NCBI GenBank assembly: GCA_945881735.1
Contig: CAMCVF010000012.1
Span: 1 to 61,235 of the forward strand
Origin: Methylotenera oryzisoli
GTDB lineage: Bacteria > Pseudomonadota > Gammaproteobacteria > Burkholderiales > Methylophilaceae
DNA: 61,235 nucleotides
Direction: 5' to 3'
Part shown: positions 1,082 to 7,030 of the stretch, piece after piece
Numbering within the stretch: position 1 is the first letter of the stretch
Layout of the letters: each line of letters opens with the position of its first letter
Notes under the pieces: generated by a model
Databases searched by the model: none
Seen by the model: the letters and a program-made list of their open reading frames with translations, nothing else
What the model was told of the DNA's origin: nothing
Translations under genes and position numbers: made by a program

Positions 1082-1756
1082 ATGAAATTCAAAACACTTA
1101 CTTTAGCTGCTTTGATCGCTTTATCAGTTAACGCTGAAGCCGCTCAAATTCAATCAGCTTCAGCTACTTTTACTGGAACACTGACTGACTTCAACACTTT
1201 TGATGGTTATGTTTTACCGCAAAATAATGTTACAAGTCTTGATTTAGGCAATGGCATTAGTATGACAAGCTCAGAATTTTCAACTGTGGGTCAAAATGCA
1301 TTTGGTTTAGACCAAAACGGATTATGGACTACTGAAGGTAATAGCAATCGCGATGGTAACTTTGTATCGACCGACTTCACAGGTATTGGTCGGATTACTT
1401 TCAATTTTAACGCAGCAATGCAAAATGTGGGCATCTTTGCTAATCAATCTCAAATTTTCGGAGTCAACAACAGCTTACAGTTATTTGCTTTTGACATAAA
1501 CGGTAATGTGCTAGAGAGTTTCACAAGCTCTATTGATACCGACGTAGATGGTTACGACGAAGGCAAGTTTGTTGGTTTTGCACGTTCAACGGCTGATATT
1601 TATGGCTTTGCTTTAGAGAATGTTAGCTCAAATAATGGTAGCTTTGTTGCAGATAACTTACTAGTGTCATCAGTGCCTGAACCAGAATCATACGCCATGT
1701 TGTTAGTTGGCTTAGGTGCTATTGGCGCTGTTGCTCGCCGTCGCCGTGCAAAATAA
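1082..1756 (+). CDS. PEP-CTERM sorting domain protein 1 (extracellular, function unknown)
   Basis: The 224-residue protein has a Sec signal peptide (MKFKTLTLAALIALSVNAEA, cleavage near residue 20) and a C-terminal PEP-CTERM tail. In the tail, VPEPESY starts near residue 198, followed by a hydrophobic helix and an RRRR cluster. This tripartite tail is the recognition signal for exosortases, which cleave and process the protein at the inner membrane before it reaches the surface or matrix. The middle region is rich in Asn, Gly, Phe and Thr and beta-prone; I recognise no enzyme motif. A GGGAAATAAAG stretch just upstream supplies a Shine-Dalgarno-like AGGGA. It stands alone, with its own upstream repeat array and a following hairpin. 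Confidence 0.85.
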   Translation: MKFKTLTLAALIALSVNAEAAQIQSASATFTGTLTDFNTFDGYVLPQNNVTSLDLGNGISMTSSEFSTVGQNAFGLDQNGLWTTEGNSNRDGNFVSTDFTGIGRITFNFNAAMQNVGIFANQSQIFGVNNSLQLFAFDINGNVLESFTSSIDTDVDGYDEGKFVGFARSTADIYGFALENVSSNNGSFVADNLLVSSVPEPESYAMLLVGLGAIGAVARRRRAK

Positions 1757-1767
1757 ATTAAGAATAT

Positions 1768-1803
1768 GAAACTGACCACTTTCGATCAATAGAGGTCAGT
1801 TTC
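1768..1803 (+). terminator. Hairpin after PEP-CTERM gene 1
   Basis: GAAACTGACC at 1768-1777 pairs perfectly with GGTCAGTTTC at 1794-1803 across a 16-base loop. It lies 12 bases after the stop codon. There is no strong U-tract behind it, so it may be a 3' stabilising hairpin or a weak terminator. Confidence 0.5.
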
Positions 1804-1986
1804 AGTTGAATCACCAATCGTTTTGATTTTACTTAATTAGCCCAGGCTTACAGTTCGGTATTGTCATTAACGTGAAAGAAAGTGTTTTATTTGTTCAAAT
1901 CAACCATTCATTTGAGTGTTTTGAACTTAATGCGTCAGTAATCCAAAATCAAGTAAAGATTTTTTAAATTTTCTAGGAGAAATGTA

Positions 1987-4197
1987 ATGAAGGGTATTAA
2001 GCATCCAAACAACGATGTTTCACTCAACGATTCTGGCAACACATCAATTGTCGAGGTTCTAAACAATGTTAACTTAAATCGTCGTCAATTCCTCATGACC
2101 AGTATCAGCTCATCAGCATTGGTTGCTGCTGGCGGTCTTACATTATCAGGCTTTGCACATGCAGTCACTTCACCTACTGTTGGTGGTGCTTTAGCTGGTG
2201 CAAGTGTACCTTCAACAACTGTTGGCGCGCCTACTGTGCCAATCACTTTTACTCCAATCGGTCCAAACCTAGCAGCAAGTGGTGTGGACTTAGTAACGGT
2301 TCCAACTGGTTATACAGCCAATCTATTCGTGGCTTGGGGTGACCCAATTGTGCGCGGCGGTGTGGCTTTTAGTGGAAATGCAACTGAAACTGCTGCCCAA
2401 CAACGTTTAGCCTATGGTGAACATACCGATGGCATGCATTTCTTCCCATTTGCCGAAAGAAACGGTGAATTCAGTAGCGAGCGTGGTTTACTTGTTTCTA
2501 ACAGTGAGTACACCCATGAAGCAATTTTACACCCAGACGGTCAAGACAACTTCACTATTGCTAAGGCGCGTAAATCACAAGCAGCGCACGGTGTTAACAT
2601 CATGGAGGCAAGACGTGTAAGAGGTAACTGGGGCGTTCAACGTAACTCCCTTTACGGCAGACGTATTGATGCCAATACCAGAATGCGCATCAGCGGCCCA
2701 GCAGCTGGTCATGCATTAATGAAAACTCTTGATTACACCATTACCGATTCAGCAACTACACCAACTGGTGGCATGACAGATGGTACTTATTCCTACGGTA
2801 CAGTCAACAACTGTGCACATGGCTATACCCCATGGGGCACCTACTTAACCTGCGAAGAAAACTTTAACGGTTACTTTGGTAGCACAAGCGTTGTAAATAC
2901 TACTGCAACTTTTTCTGAAAACAGCAAACTATACCGCCGCTATAACATTAATGCTGCAGGTTTTGGTTACAAGTGGCATGAAGTAGACCCACGCTGGGAT
3001 GTTAATGTTAATTCTAACGGCCCGAATACATTCGGTTGGGTTGTTGAAATTGATCCATTTAACACGAAAAGCGTGCCTGTTAAACGTACCGCACTCGGCC
3101 GTTTTAAACATGAAAGCGTGCAATATGTGGTAGACGCAGCCAACGACCTTGGTATGTATTCAGGTGACGATGAGCGTAACGACTATATCTACAAATTTGT
3201 AGCCAACGCGAAATATAACCCAAATAACCGCGCTGCAAACCGTGATATTCTTGACAATGGTACGCTATACGTTGCACGTTTTGATGCAGGCCTCACAGGC
3301 GTTTGGTTGCCATTAACACCGGGCAGCATTGGTATAGGTGGTGTGGCCTTACGTGACAACCCAAACTTCGCGGGTGCTAACGATGCTGAAGTGCTGGCTA
3401 AGATCTTAATCAAAACACGTATGGCTGCCGATGCTGTTGGCGCAACCATGATGGACCGCCCAGAATGGATTGGTGCACGTCCACGTGTGAATGGCTTCTT
3501 AGATATTGAACTTTACTGCACAATGACCAATAACAGCCGTCGCGGTACGGGTACACCAAGTGTTAATGCTGCCGACGGATCTACCGCAGCTGCCAGTGCT
3601 AACCCACCTGTTGATGCAGCTAACCCACGTGCTAACAACGTGCACGGTGGTGTTATCCGCTGGCGTGAAGATGGCCGTAGCGTTCGTGCAACCACCTTCA
3701 CATGGGATATCTTTGTACAATGTGGCGATACGCGAACAACTAAAACAGCTAATGCTACCAATAACTTTAGAGGTGACATTGTTGACAGTCCAGATGGCAG
3801 TGCAGATTACGGCGCACCAGACGGCTTATGGTTTGATGACTTTGGTCGCATGTGGGTGCAAACAGACTCAGGTAGTGGTACTGGAGACTTTGTGAACTTG
3901 GGTATGGATCAAATGGTGTGTGTTGACCCAAGCACGAAAGAAACGAAACGTTTCTTAACGGCTTGTAAAGAAGCAGAAGTTACTGGTGTGACGATGTCAC
4001 CAGACGGTAAAACGATGTGGGTTGGTATTCAACACCCAGGTGATGCTGGAACTGCGGCAAGTCCACAAGCCACTTCAAGTTGGCCGCATAGCCAATGGAA
4101 TCTTGAAAGTGATGGCGTAACACCGCTTAATCCAGGCCGTCCACGTTCAGGTGTAGTGGTCATTACCAAAAATGATGGTGGCATTATCGGTACTTAA
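1987..4197 (+). CDS. phoX: Tat-exported PhoX-family alkaline phosphatase (DUF839)
   Basis: The protein has 736 residues, near the usual PhoX length. A long N-region of about 30 residues precedes the twin-arginine signal NRRQFLMTS (Arg32-Arg33), a hydrophobic stretch and an AHA-type cleavage site near residue 59. Family signatures follow: NCAHGYTPWGTYLTCEENF (residues 275-293, with Cys276, Cys289, Glu290 and Glu291), KHESVQYV, YSGDDERNDYIYKFV and PDGLWFDDFGRMWVQTD. Characterised PhoX enzymes are periplasmic or extracellular Fe/Ca phosphomonoesterases that fold in the cytoplasm and leave by the Tat system, releasing phosphate from organic esters. Start choice: ATG at 1987, preceded by TAGGAGA at 1974-1980. 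A strong terminator follows. Upstream, TTGTCAT at 1861 resembles half a Pho box but is not convincing alone. Confidence 0.9.
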   Translation: MKGIKHPNNDVSLNDSGNTSIVEVLNNVNLNRRQFLMTSISSSALVAAGGLTLSGFAHAVTSPTVGGALAGASVPSTTVGAPTVPITFTPIGPNLAASGVDLVTVPTGYTANLFVAWGDPIVRGGVAFSGNATETAAQQRLAYGEHTDGMHFFPFAERNGEFSSERGLLVSNSEYTHEAILHPDGQDNFTIAKARKSQAAHGVNIMEARRVRGNWGVQRNSLYGRRIDANTRMRISGPAAGHALMKTLDYTITDSATTPTGGMTDGTYSYGTVNNCAHGYTPWGTYLTCEENFNGYFGSTSVVNTTATFSENSKLYRRYNINAAGFGYKWHEVDPRWDVNVNSNGPNTFGWVVEIDPFNTKSVPVKRTALGRFKHESVQYVVDAANDLGMYSGDDERNDYIYKFVANAKYNPNNRAANRDILDNGTLYVARFDAGLTGVWLPLTPGSIGIGGVALRDNPNFAGANDAEVLAKILIKTRMAADAVGATMMDRPEWIGARPRVNGFLDIELYCTMTNNSRRGTGTPSVNAADGSTAAASANPPVDAANPRANNVHGGVIRWREDGRSVRATTFTWDIFVQCGDTRTTKTANATNNFRGDIVDSPDGSADYGAPDGLWFDDFGRMWVQTDSGSGTGDFVNLGMDQMVCVDPSTKETKRFLTACKEAEVTGVTMSPDGKTMWVGIQHPGDAGTAASPQATSSWPHSQWNLESDGVTPLNPGRPRSGVVVITKNDGGIIGT

Positions 4198-4228
4198 TCG
4201 TTTTTAAATCTTGTTGATTTAGTTCACT

Positions 4229-4275
4229 AAATTCGGGCTGTGTTAGGCGTTGCTTAATACAGTCCGAATTTTTTT
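4229..4275 (+). terminator. Rho-independent terminator of phoX
   Basis: AAATTCGG-GCTGT and ACAGT-CCGAATTT form a long stem with a 15-base loop. A run of T ends at 4275. It lies about 30 bases after the phoX stop codon and separates phoX from the exosortase operon. Confidence 0.85.
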
Positions 4276-4385
4276 GCAAAAGCGGTCATTATTTTTGTAC
4301 AGAAGTTGTCATTCTTTTTAAAGTTATTAATGATGATGCAAAATCTATAAAGAATAAACTTATCTTTAAGCATCAAGAGGTAAAT

Positions 4386-5147
4386 ATGCCTTTAATATCA
4401 TTCATTGTACTCACTTTTTTTTACCCTTTACTGTCCTTTGCAGAAAGTACAGTGATACCCTCCCTCAAAGATGCTACTTTAATTGAGCAAATCTCTCCTG
4501 AGTTGGCCGCCGGCAGTGCGGAATTTATTTATATTGGTAGAATCCAACGTGGATTATGGAGTAGAAGAGGCTTGGTTCAATTTGATTTATCTTCGATTCC
4601 TAACAATGCAACGATTCAATCCGCTATCTTAAAACTGCATGTTGCAAATGGCAGAGCAGAAGCTTTGGATTTAAAAGTGCATAGAGTAACCAATAGCTGG
4701 GGTGAAGGAGCGACAAATTCCATTGGTGGAAAAGGGGGCTTTGCAGCGCCAAATGAGGCAACTTGGGTTAGCCGTTTTTCTGGTACAACACTAAAATGGT
4801 CTGCCCTGGGAGGAGATTTTTTAAGTACCATTTCTGCAAGGCAAGAACTTAGTGATGCTGGAGGTGTTAGCTACGACATTACTGATGCTGGATTAGTCAA
4901 CGACGTGATATTTTGGCTGAACAATCCTGGCCAAAATCATGGTTGGCTGCTCGAGGATGATACAGCGTATTCAGCAAAAGCACTGGCGAGTAGGGAGCAT
5001 CCAAATGCAACCATCAGACCTCAACTCATTATTCAATGGACACCCCAAACTTCTGAAGATGACTCCGGTGATGTACCTATTCCATTAGGGATGCTGATTT
5101 TGCTATCGGGTGGTTTGATTTATTTAAACAAACGTCATACGAGCTAG
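4386..5147 (+). CDS. DNRLRE-like surface protein with non-PEP C-terminal anchor
   Basis: The 253-residue protein has a Sec signal peptide (MPLISFIVLTFFYPLLSFAE). Its body fits the DNRLRE/jelly-roll pattern of secreted beta-sandwich proteins: RRGLVQFDLSSIP, AILKLHV, VHRVTNSWGEG, then a strand-rich end with RPQLIIQWTP near residue 218. The tail is VPIPLGMLILLSGGLIYLNKRH: a short Pro-containing lead, one hydrophobic helix, then Lys-Arg. It resembles an exosortase-type sorting signal in layout but lacks the PEP triplet. It is the first gene of a four-gene operon; the next Shine-Dalgarno overlaps its stop codon. AAGAGG upstream at 4375-4380 supports the start. The substrate role is inferred from position and tail; the domain name is from motif memory. 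Confidence 0.7.
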   Translation: MPLISFIVLTFFYPLLSFAESTVIPSLKDATLIEQISPELAAGSAEFIYIGRIQRGLWSRRGLVQFDLSSIPNNATIQSAILKLHVANGRAEALDLKVHRVTNSWGEGATNSIGGKGGFAAPNEATWVSRFSGTTLKWSALGGDFLSTISARQELSDAGGVSYDITDAGLVNDVIFWLNNPGQNHGWLLEDDTAYSAKALASREHPNATIRPQLIIQWTPQTSEDDSGDVPIPLGMLILLSGGLIYLNKRHTS

Positions 5148-5157
5148 GAGAATGATG

Positions 5158-5799
5158 ATGATGAAAACACTATTTCAGTTGATGATTTTTTTAACGTTTC
5201 CAATGGCTTCTTTTGCCGCCACCTATGATGAATCTACTGATGGTGACTTGTCCAACGATAGATTAAATCCTACTTTATTTCAGTTAAGTTATGGCACGAC
5301 TAGCCCAAATGGCATAGCAGGTAACAATGTTGTCAATGGAAGTGTTGGTAGGGTTGGTAGCACGATTGACAGAGATTATCTACATATCATCGTACCCACA
5401 GATTTTGTATGGTCTGAATTAAAAGTAGGCAATCAAACACAGGTTGGTAGTAACTCCTCTTTTATTGGATTATCTGCTGGAAGTTCGATGCCATTAGACC
5501 CGTCAGCGCAAAGTGCAACTGGCTTGCTTGGCTTTAAACTCTATAACTTAAATGATAGAGGACAAGATATCTTAGATGACATGGGCGTTAGCCAAAATGG
5601 CTCAAGTGGATTTATTACGCCACTTTCTGCTGGCAGCTATACGCTTTGGATTCAAGAACTGGCGCCTGGAAACTTTAATTACCGATTTAATTTAATTCTG
5701 ACTCCTGTTCCTGAACCAGAAAGCTATGCCATGCTGTTAGTGGGCTTAGCTATTATCTTTATGTTTTCAAGGCGCAAAATCGCCAAGTTAACTATCTAA
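5158..5799 (+). CDS. PEP-CTERM sorting domain protein 2
   Basis: Four consecutive ATG codons occur at 5152, 5155, 5158 and 5161. AGGAG at 5146-5150 is best spaced for 5158 or 5161, so 5158 is used. The product has a Sec signal peptide ending near FPMASFAA, a beta-rich middle with Asn/Gly/Ser, and a PEP-CTERM tail: VPEPESYAMLLVGL, hydrophobic helix, then SRRK. The VPEPESYAMLLVGL block is identical to that of the protein at 1082-1756, while the rest differs. The body resembles the pre-peptidase/beta-sandwich type of secreted domain, but no function can be read. It lies between the DNRLRE-like gene and the exosortase, so it is the strongest candidate substrate of that enzyme. Confidence 0.85.
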   Translation: MMKTLFQLMIFLTFPMASFAATYDESTDGDLSNDRLNPTLFQLSYGTTSPNGIAGNNVVNGSVGRVGSTIDRDYLHIIVPTDFVWSELKVGNQTQVGSNSSFIGLSAGSSMPLDPSAQSATGLLGFKLYNLNDRGQDILDDMGVSQNGSSGFITPLSAGSYTLWIQELAPGNFNYRFNLILTPVPEPESYAMLLVGLAIIFMFSRRKIAKLTI

Positions 5800-5806
5800 A
5801 TTCTGT

Positions 5807-6400
5807 ATGAGCGAAATAAAACCTATCGCAGGTGTTGATTACTGGCCAAATGCTGACGAATGGAAAAAGCAACCAACACCTCCGCCAAAGCCGCCTTCGC
5901 TGATTTTTCATGCTATATTATTTTTATTAGTGTTTACAATTCTGCAAGTTGGTTGGCTGTTAGTGCGCGATAACAACTTTGGTCATTTTATACGTGGTGA
6001 TCTCACCGTTAAGCCCTCTGTTAGTTTAATTAATACATTGTCACCATCCATCCATGCAAGCGCTTTAGGTAATCAAATAAAAGCAAAGGGCGGTGGTTTG
6101 GTGATTAAGCTAGGCTGTGAAGGTGTTGAGGCTTTGTTTATTTTAATTGCCGCTATAGTCAATGCGCCTTTATCACGTATGGCGAAATTGAACGGAATTT
6201 TGTGGGGCACATTATTGATATTTGTTGTTAACCAAGCCCGTATTGTCGCGTTGTTTTATGCATTTCGTGCTGATAAGTCTATATTCCATTTTTTGCATGG
6301 CACGGTTGCACCCTTAATGCTCATTGTAATCGCAGGTCTATTCTTTCATTGGTGGATAGTAAAAAATTCTGCTAATAAACCTGTCGCTGAATCAGTTTAA
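5807..6400 (+). CDS. Small exosortase (XrtH-like single-domain type)
   Basis: The 197-residue inner-membrane protein has about four or five hydrophobic helices. The exosortase catalytic set is present in order: Cys104 in LGCEGVEALFILIAA, Arg145 in VNQARIVALFYAF, and His164 in HFLHGTVAPL. Exosortases are cysteine-protease/transpeptidase-like enzymes that cut C-terminal sorting signals such as PEP-CTERM. A hydrophilic N-terminal extension of about 30 residues ending in TPPPKPPS precedes the first helix. The short length and the adjacent partner protein fit XrtH-type enzymes better than the long EpsH/XrtA type, but subfamily is an inference. The start is 7 bases after the preceding stop, and the next gene starts immediately after the stop, so the operon is tight. 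Confidence 0.8.
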   Translation: MSEIKPIAGVDYWPNADEWKKQPTPPPKPPSLIFHAILFLLVFTILQVGWLLVRDNNFGHFIRGDLTVKPSVSLINTLSPSIHASALGNQIKAKGGGLVIKLGCEGVEALFILIAAIVNAPLSRMAKLNGILWGTLLIFVVNQARIVALFYAFRADKSIFHFLHGTVAPLMLIVIAGLFFHWWIVKNSANKPVAESV

Positions 6401-7030
6401 ATGAGCCAACCATATACGCTCATACTACGCTTCATCGTGATAGGATTATTCTTACTCGTTGCGAGTTATCAATGGGGTGAGCATCTCCTTAAAACGCTGA
6501 TTCCACTCTATGAGTGGATGGTAAAAGCACTTGATTACCGTTTTGGTTCAGTCATTTTTAGTATTAATAAGCAACATGGCGAACCGTTTTTATTATTACA
6601 AACAACTTACGCCATGCCAATTCATATGGGCATTCAAACGATCGTGCCTAATTCCCCCATTCCTAGTGCTGCACGCATGCCATTAGGCAACGTGTTATTA
6701 CCATTTATTTTAATTTTTACAACCATATTATCTTGGCCAAACACTTACGCTAAACCAAAAGCCTATTTATATTCGGTACGCATATTAATTGCTATACCGA
6801 TATGTCTAACCATTATGTTGATTGATATTCCAACACAATTCTTAAAATTAATTTGGGAGAACTTAAATAATCAACTTAACTTAAACATCAGTCAAAGCTT
6901 GCATTATTTTACCTATTGGAGTGACTTTTTAAATGGAGGAGGCTTAATAGCGCTCAGTATTGCCTCAGGCATTTTAGTCGTTGGCATAACTGACTTCTTA
7001 ACTAAACCCCATATGATTAAAAGTAACTGA
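6401..7030 (+). CDS. Exosortase-partner membrane protein
   Basis: The 209-residue protein begins directly after the exosortase stop codon. It has an N-terminal hydrophobic helix (residues 8-24), a periplasmic-looking middle of about 70 residues with alternating polar/aliphatic strands, then helices near 98-114, 126-146 and 185-203. This layout (one helix, extracytoplasmic domain, a Pro-containing approach to a second membrane bundle) resembles the membrane proteins described beside XrtH-type exosortases. No catalytic motif is visible. Its role, perhaps substrate presentation or stabilising the exosortase, is inferred from the tight operon. It is the last gene of the operon. Confidence 0.55.
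   Translation: MSQPYTLILRFIVIGLFLLVASYQWGEHLLKTLIPLYEWMVKALDYRFGSVIFSINKQHGEPFLLLQTTYAMPIHMGIQTIVPNSPIPSAARMPLGNVLLPFILIFTTILSWPNTYAKPKAYLYSVRILIAIPICLTIMLIDIPTQFLKLIWENLNNQLNLNISQSLHYFTYWSDFLNGGGLIALSIASGILVVGITDFLTKPHMIKSN

Follow-up and report, generated by a model that had tools for sequence, protein, structure and literature searches.

A four-gene unit downstream of phoX

The window, i.e., the whole 61,235-nucleotide stretch of Methylotenera oryzisoli contig CAMCVF010000012.1 that we analysed, carries four open reading frames on its forward strand (4386–5147, 5152–5799, 5807–6400 and 6401–7030), which are separated by 4, 7 and 0 bases and encode, in this order, a DNRLRE surface protein (253 aa), a protein with a PEP-CTERM tail, termed here P215 (215 aa), an XrtM-like exosortase (197 aa) and a companion membrane protein (209 aa). 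Open reading frames, domain models and alignments bear out the initial annotation in its description of this run, its spacing, the triad of the enzyme and the tails of its neighbours, and our reading of the open reading frames in the first 12 kb revealed no EPS gene. A congener (genome G006, locus L009) retains all four genes in unchanged order, with protein identities of 68–75% and dS far above dN in all four.

The unit is preceded on the same strand by the gene for a PhoX-type alkaline phosphatase (1987–4197; PF05787, 499.6 bits), whose product has, by reading, an RR-x-F-L signal. The first gene of the PhoX neighbourhood encodes a 224-aa FxDxF-family PEP-CTERM protein (1082–1756, forward strand; NF038126, 52.8 bits, cut-off 50; PF07589, 36.9 bits, cut-off 20.7), a homologue of which adjoins phoX in several DNRLRE loci. 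Between phoX and the four-gene unit lies a hairpin followed by a T-run that resembles an intrinsic terminator (4229–4275, forward strand; 20-pair stem, −28.8 kcal/mol, z −6.94, none of 200 shuffles as good) and that was absent from the output of a simple terminator scan. An RpoN promoter 5' of the operon was considered and rejected: TGGCAC-N5-TTGC with one mismatch matched the window 11 times against 7.8 expected, with no match near 4386.

An XrtM-like enzyme and its companion

The enzyme exceeds the cut-off of the exosortase/archaeosortase signature TIGR04178 (39.5 versus 23 bits), and its best-scoring NCBIfam model is XrtM (TIGR04300), at 76 bits against a cut-off of 125; the search against subfamily models that the initial annotation had proposed thus places XrtM closest, under its curated cut-off. 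TIGR04300 matches all 33 relatives of the window enzyme and has this enzyme as its single match in the genome (G000), and the same model also matched seven scanned XrtH-type enzymes. Cys104, Asn142, Arg145 and His164 are invariant in all 33 aligned enzymes (window enzyme counted), and we take Cys104, Arg145 and His164 to be catalytic. The proline-rich N-terminal extension noted earlier is present, and a motif within it, KPIxGxDYWPxxxEW, is common to 6 of the 33 enzymes. At E 1, no solved structure is similar in sequence to the enzyme or its companion.

The companion has about four hydrophobic segments and well-conserved WP, DxP and GGG motifs. A comparison with the exosortase models had also been proposed for this protein, and it returned no convincing family: the companion itself matched no Pfam or NCBIfam model at E 1, and scattered weak matches among 26 members (the best, at E 0.0021, to an antiporter subunit model in 2 members) are taken as chance. 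Identity with EpsI or the XrtH-associated protein was rejected, no such model being among the matches of the 26 members at E 1. An HMM built from companions at 11 loci recovered the companion from 20 of 22 additional enzyme loci and from none of 20 XrtH-type loci, and in a class sample the companion was found at all six XrtM-type copies (5 genomes, 2 passing the XrtM cut-off) and at none of seven XrtH-type loci. In a separate set of 11 loci, L046, L055 and L056 were dropped because, by length, they are the contigs of L009, L011 and L012. Overall, it adjoins 31 of 33 related enzymes and is missing from all 27 XrtH-type loci; in an enzyme tree of 54 rows, companion-bearing enzymes are split from 15 companion-less ones at 99/95. 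Both examined loci over the XrtM cut-off (L211 and L212) have the same companion gene. By our own, unpublished criterion, namely the nearest model together with the adjoining companion of over-cut-off members, the window enzyme is thus XrtM-like, although it scores below the cut-off and we found no model for the companion.

Two known systems are similar in outline. The XrtH system (TIGR04177, with IPTL-CTERM, TIGR04174, and NF041730) also has a small exosortase, an IPTLxxWG-like tail and its own membrane companion; however, the window enzyme reaches only 46.2 of the required 86 bits with TIGR04177 and lies on the other side of the enzyme tree, and its companion has no clear profile similarity to nine proteins encoded 3' of XrtH-type enzymes (hhalign probability 5%; the one scanned is NF041730). 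Against the enzymes themselves, the companion gives an hhalign probability of 1%. The classical PEP-CTERM/EpsH system (XrtA/XrtB), reportedly described by Haft et al. in 2006, shares the tripartite tail and an enzyme of the exosortase superfamily, but PF09721 misses the window enzyme, the EpsI model misses the companion, and the tail motif is different.

An LPxW tail beside the enzyme and elsewhere

Many proteins encoded beside these enzymes end in a common tail, D-x-P-(T)-L-P-x-W followed by a helix and a basic end, and different protein families bear it beside different enzymes. A leave-one-out profile detected the tail at 20 of 34 enzyme loci, and at none of 20 XrtH-type and 7 control loci. 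The other 14 enzyme loci have no linked tail by profile, which counts against a module of enzyme and linked substrate. The initial annotation had named homologues without a linked substrate as evidence against its proposal, and this holds in part: by reading, 11 of the 34 loci lack a linked LPxW-tailed protein within the stretch examined, but 9 of the 11 have one elsewhere in the genome (those of G250 and G268 may belong to a second copy of the enzyme).

A whole-genome search (E ≤ 1e-5) covered a first list of 88 genomes minus 13 enzyme-lacking ones plus 5 others, and matched the tail in 23 of 24 enzyme-bearing genomes, in none of 21 with an XrtH-type match only, and in 1 of 35 others. Because 14 of the 24 had supplied training tails, 10 were held out; nine of these matched (five of them congeners of training genomes), some with the tail only away from the enzyme. 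As an exception, G050 has an LPxW tail and no enzyme was found in it. These co-occurrence tests are uncorrected for phylogeny, and the tail differences represent few independent events.

The DNRLRE protein (NF033679, 74.4 bits, cut-off 34; PF24517, 27.6 bits, cut-off 26) consists of a signal peptide (by reading), a DNRLRE/CBM96-like domain and the C-terminal tail DVPIPLGMLILLSGGLIYLNKRHTS, which fits, by its letters, the tail type found beside relatives of the enzyme but has Gly in place of Trp. Tail profile A4 gives it 27.9 bits and matched it at E 5e-6 in the whole-genome search; a profile that includes the congener's tail gave E 1.2e-6. Against its assignment to the XrtM-like enzyme, Trp stands at that position in all 20 training tails, including that of G006, and the match fell to a non-significant E of 0.018 once two close relatives were left out of the profile; the leave-one-out profile did not match the protein. 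IPTL-CTERM TIGR04174 had no match to the protein at E 1.

At E ≤ 1e-5 the genome holds three tail matches, i.e., the DNRLRE protein and two unlinked candidate substrates, an S8 subtilase (contig C5) and a ubiquitin-domain protein (contig C14). The subtilase tail, PTLSEWG, has the IPTL form with Ser at a position where most LPxW tails have Pro and where two tails near XrtH-type enzymes (L090 and L091) also have Ser; it passes the IPTL-CTERM cut-off (23.6 versus 20.5 bits), so that the boundary between the LPxW tail and IPTL-CTERM is not sharp. The DNRLRE tail might have decayed and no longer be cut in this strain, with the enzyme kept for the two unlinked proteins. Such decay would agree with the Gly, with the much better score of the subtilase tail (E 3.7e-11 versus 5e-6) and with the presence, next to the enzyme in L048, a different Methylotenera genome, of a close homologue of the subtilase (86% identity), but we consider it unlikely: relative to G006, the protein has been kept (dN 0.19, dS 1.29), as have D-V-P-x-P, the helix and the basic end of its tail.

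P215 and changes of tail among relatives

P215 has a signal peptide (by reading) and the tail VPEPESYAMLLVGL, which lies above both PEP-CTERM cut-offs (PF07589, 28.8 versus 20.7 bits; TIGR02595, 20.9 versus 16 bits), resembles most PEP-CTERM tails of this genome, and gives no match at E 0.1 with the LPxW profile. Besides the XrtM-like enzyme, the genome encodes XrtB (386.8 bits, cut-off 275) and XrtD (486.7 bits, cut-off 400). The initial annotation proposed that the exosortase is dedicated to both of its neighbours and processes them. Both genes do lie within one short operon, P215 and the enzyme are direct neighbours in G006 as well as in G171 (about 2 kb apart in G052), and one relative, in G197, has an LPxW-like tail. 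Moreover, 8 of the 10 genomes of the order with a near full-length P215 (399 searched) contain the enzyme, no less than the 7 of 12 with the DNRLRE protein; a mere client of XrtB need not show such co-occurrence, which counts against assigning P215 to XrtB. However, this proposal appears improbable: P215 bears a canonical PEP tail here and XrtB is encoded in the same genome, P215 is not near the enzyme in G110, two unlinked candidate substrates exist, and the P215 relatives in G304 and G387, whose genomes have XrtD, end in VPLPA-like tails.

VPLPA-like tails were read in P215 relatives of three genomes, two of which have XrtD over its cut-off, compared with none of the 11 other genomes of that search. 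The third, G178, is an exception in which XrtD was not found (its genome is fragmented); a further one is the window's genome, which has XrtD and yet a PEP tail on P215.

The DNRLRE protein, too, varies in its tail. Its gene lies near phoX in 14 of 16 DNRLRE rows, and at nine enzyme-bearing loci its orthologues end in tails of the LPxW kind or in ones that resemble it more loosely, versus PEP tails in all four enzyme-lacking genomes with a recognisable tail; G064 is an exception, with the enzyme present and yet PEP tails on both DNRLRE copies. The DNRLRE tree is too weakly resolved for a confident count of switches. The better-resolved PhoX tree (13 rows, three without a PEP or LP label) has at least two changes of tail type. 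Beyond G000, a class-wide search found DNRLRE proteins in 8 genomes. The three best matches (G736, G453 and G641), with no recognised tail and no phoX within the stretch examined, were left out of the trees. Judged from these sequences, the tail types of both families (PEP and LPxW, for P215 also VPLPA-like) appear to track, broadly and with the exceptions given, the exosortases of the genome.

Discussion

We consider it reasonably probable that the locus combines an XrtM module, comprising the DNRLRE substrate, the enzyme and the companion, with P215, which would be co-transcribed with the module but be a client of XrtB. The signal peptide would export the DNRLRE protein, and the C-terminal helix would hold it in the inner membrane, where exosortase and companion would recognise the D-x-P-(T)-L-P-x-W-like stretch ahead of the helix. 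Cys104, with Arg145 and His164, would cut there and hand the protein to a presumed acceptor, so that it would leave the membrane and reach the envelope or the surface of the cell. The C5 subtilase and the C14 ubiquitin-domain protein are probably clients of the same enzyme, and P215 would be a functional neighbour whose tail is sorted by XrtB. Of the initial proposal, these data support a small exosortase whose partner is constant and beside which a candidate substrate is encoded; they do not support the claim that both neighbours are its substrates, given the tail of P215, nor that of dedication, given the two candidates elsewhere.

That surface-protein and sorting genes merely co-travel in a neutral mobile cassette, with recombination swapping tails without functional matching, would agree with the patchy distribution of the enzyme (4 of 37 family genomes, 21 of 399 in the order) and its widely differing neighbours, but is very unlikely given the nearly constant companion, the same tail on different families beside different enzymes, and its recurrence in held-out genomes.

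Beyond the XrtM module and its XrtB-sorted neighbour, a bolder proposal is conceivable, though we put it forward only tentatively: XrtM may be a two-protein sortase whose undescribed companion reads the D-x-P-(T)-L-P-x-W tail, the two partner surface proteins of the operon may be deliberately anchored by different exosortases, and families may move among three sorting enzymes by swapping C-terminal tails.

Exosortase specificity has largely been assigned by co-occurrence, and our literature search on exosortases returned nothing on XrtM or the LPxW tail among the matches listed. Here, both a recognition tail and a companion subunit can be proposed for the XrtM subfamily. Because tail type varies among homologues, both of the DNRLRE protein beside phoX and of P215, broadly with the enzymes present, the assignment of tails to enzymes becomes testable in one genome with three exosortases.

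Rhombosortase/GlyGly-CTERM offers a precedent, for which dedicated sorting pairs, in which one enzyme has one target per genome, and homologues with different sorting tails have been described (PMC3237569). With three tail matches in G000, two of them unlinked proteins with tails of the LPxW or IPTL kind, and target status assigned by tail, the present system would not be strictly dedicated in that sense. As in PMC3237569, candidate targets adjoin the enzyme and homologues bear different tails; unlike there, three candidate targets occur together with three exosortases, and the difference in tail can be traced beside one gene, phoX.

An XrtM-like exosortase and its companion

The initial annotation placed four closely spaced genes at positions 4386-7030, and their position and spacing were confirmed: a DNRLRE-domain protein gene (4386-5147), the gene of the PEP-CTERM protein P215 (5152-5799), an exosortase gene (5807-6400), each with a family match, and a gene for a companion membrane protein (6401-7030), separated by 4, 7 and 0 bases. 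This gene order is real, and it is kept in a congener (G006, locus L009), in comparison with which dN is well below dS for all four genes. The four genes are preceded by phoX and a further PEP-CTERM gene, and the 20-pair hairpin and T-run 3' of phoX suggest that the four form their own transcription unit. The cluster of PEP-CTERM gene, phoX and DNRLRE gene (1082-5147) recurs across sampled Burkholderiales with or without an exosortase; phoX stands near a DNRLRE relative in 14 of 16 rows.

The Cys104, Arg145 and His164 reported for the enzyme are present and, together with Asn142, invariant across 33 aligned enzymes. Among NCBIfam models XrtM scores highest for it, at 76 bits against a cut-off of 125, and all 33 match this model at E 0.001; in our order sample this model (TIGR04300) matches 42 of 399 genomes at E 1e-8, one exceeding the cut-off. 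Scored with our own enzyme HMM, fetched loci fell into two classes: 20 loci at 65-86 bits, all without the companion and here labelled XrtH-type, versus those of at least 114 bits, where the companion is nearly always present. The XrtH cut-off was exceeded by all six XrtH-type enzymes scanned, plus one from a class sample. The higher-scoring kind occurs in 21 of the 399 order genomes and the XrtH-type in another 21 (G368 being assigned by score alone). Ahead of the first hydrophobic segment, the enzyme N-terminus (5807-5880) carries a KPIxGxDYWPxxxEW motif, found in six of the 33 enzymes.

An HMM of the companion, built on 11 loci, located it beside 20 of 22 further high-scoring enzymes (31 of 33 overall; absent at L073 and L093, with L057, which stops at a contig end, not counted), but at none of the 20 XrtH-type loci. 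In the class sample (194 genomes), it adjoins all six XrtM-type copies, from five genomes (the match at L213 is weak, 26.8 bits), is adjacent in both genomes exceeding the XrtM cut-off, and stands beside none of seven XrtH-type enzymes. A 54-enzyme tree sets companion-bearing rows apart from 15 companion-less rows (support 99/95). The XrtH system has a companion of its own, NF041730, to which the XrtM-type companion has no detectable homology. By these adjacency counts, the XrtH contrast and the tree, the partner is a near-constant component of the XrtM-type system and not peculiar to the window operon. Searches of Pfam and NCBIfam at E 1 gave nothing for the window's companion and at most weak, scattered matches for 26 members. 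At the companion-less L073 (4337-8912), an LPxW-tailed ExeM/NucH-type nuclease, an XrtM-like enzyme and a P215 relative lie in series.

A putative sorting tail shared by neighbors of several families

In two scans of nine proteins each, enzyme neighbors spanned several families (S8 subtilases, an ExeM/NucH-family nuclease, an LRR protein, DNRLRE proteins and proteins with weak cyclase-like matches). The C-termini of many have D-x-P-(T)-[LIM]-P-x-W-[GA] in common, with a hydrophobic helix behind it and basic residues last. Both prolines and the tryptophan are invariant in the 20 tails chosen for profile building. Leave-one-out profiles recovered the tail in 20 of 34 enzyme loci versus none of 20 XrtH-type and seven control loci; it is visible by reading alone at three more (the window, L052 and L077) and was not seen in the fetched stretch at 11, a number of them cut short by the end of the contig. 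Of the 24 enzyme-bearing genomes, 23 had a match at E 1e-5 in a genome-wide search. Fourteen of the 24 had supplied training tails; among the ten held out, nine matched, five of these being congeners of training genomes. Matches occurred in 0/21 XrtH-type-only genomes and 1/35 others (held-out versus rest, Fisher p 2.7e-9, without phylogenetic correction). Since two subtilase tails exceed the IPTL-CTERM cut-off, the LPxW tail adjoins, and partly falls within, that known model. That enzyme, companion and tail together constitute a variant of the exosortase kind is well supported.

LPxW-tailed proteins of 480-493 aa occur at L053, L058, L061 and L100; the two scanned (L053, L058) have weak cyclase-like and Ig matches. 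A very large protein adjoins the tailed one in L053 and L100, Rhs-like by reading in L100, whose genome (G050) contains no detectable XrtM-like enzyme.

Among DNRLRE relatives, tail type largely tracks the enzyme, with exceptions. Loci that have the enzyme show an LPxW tail (G006, G052, G110, G171, L051, L054), a degenerate LPxW (the window) or a looser VP[VI]PMxW (G178, G304), versus PEP in four draft genomes without the enzyme (G041, G190, G286, G315); G387 has neither enzyme nor recognized tail, and, exceptionally, G064 has the enzyme yet two PEP-tailed copies. A PhoX tree, stronger than the DNRLRE tree, implies at least two changes between LP and PEP labels.

Candidate substrates in the host genome

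The window is contig C12 of the host genome, a 2.02-Mb draft whose closest named relatives are found in Methylotenera and elsewhere in the Methylophilaceae. This genome encodes two more exosortases by PF09721 search: XrtB (386.8 bits, cut-off 275) and the VPLPA-specific XrtD (486.7 bits, cut-off 400). It has 18 PEP-CTERM matches above the Pfam cut-off; 15 stretches were grouped by tail (for L185, at a contig end, the frame that was read was wrong), giving a VPEPET-like versus VPEAD-like split besides two VPVPAA tails, which would fit XrtD.

Three proteins matched the tail profile at E 1e-5: contig C5 encodes a subtilase of 725 aa (E 3.7e-11), C14 a ubiquitin-domain protein of 254 aa (E 2.7e-9), and the window the DNRLRE protein (E 5e-6). 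PTLSEWG in the subtilase tail is the IPTL form. At L048, in another Methylotenera genome, a homologue with 86% identity carries PTLPEWG and lies beside the enzyme. The DNRLRE tail, DVPIPLGMLIL, has glycine in place of the conserved tryptophan, and its score drops to E 0.018 when two close relatives are excluded. P215 has no match at E 0.1; its tail, VPEPESYAMLLVGL, belongs to the VPEPET-like group. The proposal of an operon carrying two dedicated substrates is not supported: P215 is unmatched, and two candidates are unlinked. Given three matches, the system probably falls outside the definition of a dedicated system in PMC3237569, which pairs a single enzyme with a single target.

Near full-length P215 nevertheless co-occurs with the enzyme in 8 of 10 genomes (Fisher p 6e-10, without phylogenetic correction), which suggests a functional bond with the exosortase system despite the differing tail kind. 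By reading, P215 relatives are PEP-tailed in the window, G006, G052, G171, G064 and G423, VPLPA-like in G178, G304 and G387, and LPxW-like in G197, with no clear tail in the G110 frame. A search for XrtD above its cut-off recovered it from G304 and G387 and from none of 12 further genomes, including the fragmented G178; the host genome has XrtD, yet its P215 is PEP-tailed. Cleavage and transfer are inferred here from the exosortase superfamily: most likely, enzyme and companion would cut three proteins at their LPxW-like tails, the DNRLRE protein and both unlinked candidates, and hand them on to an acceptor, and XrtB would most likely do likewise for P215.

In the C14 protein (255-1019, L098), a ubiquitin domain close to the eukaryotic form (PF00240, 99.4 bits) is combined with an LPPW-type sorting tail. 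Proteins with such a domain occur in four of 60 genomes, the host included; bacterial ubiquitin display had no literature match among the matches listed. In the three other Methylophilaceae (L207, L208, L210), the domain follows a signal-like segment and precedes a region that by reading resembles an autotransporter barrel, possibly giving two display routes for ubiquitin within one bacterial family.
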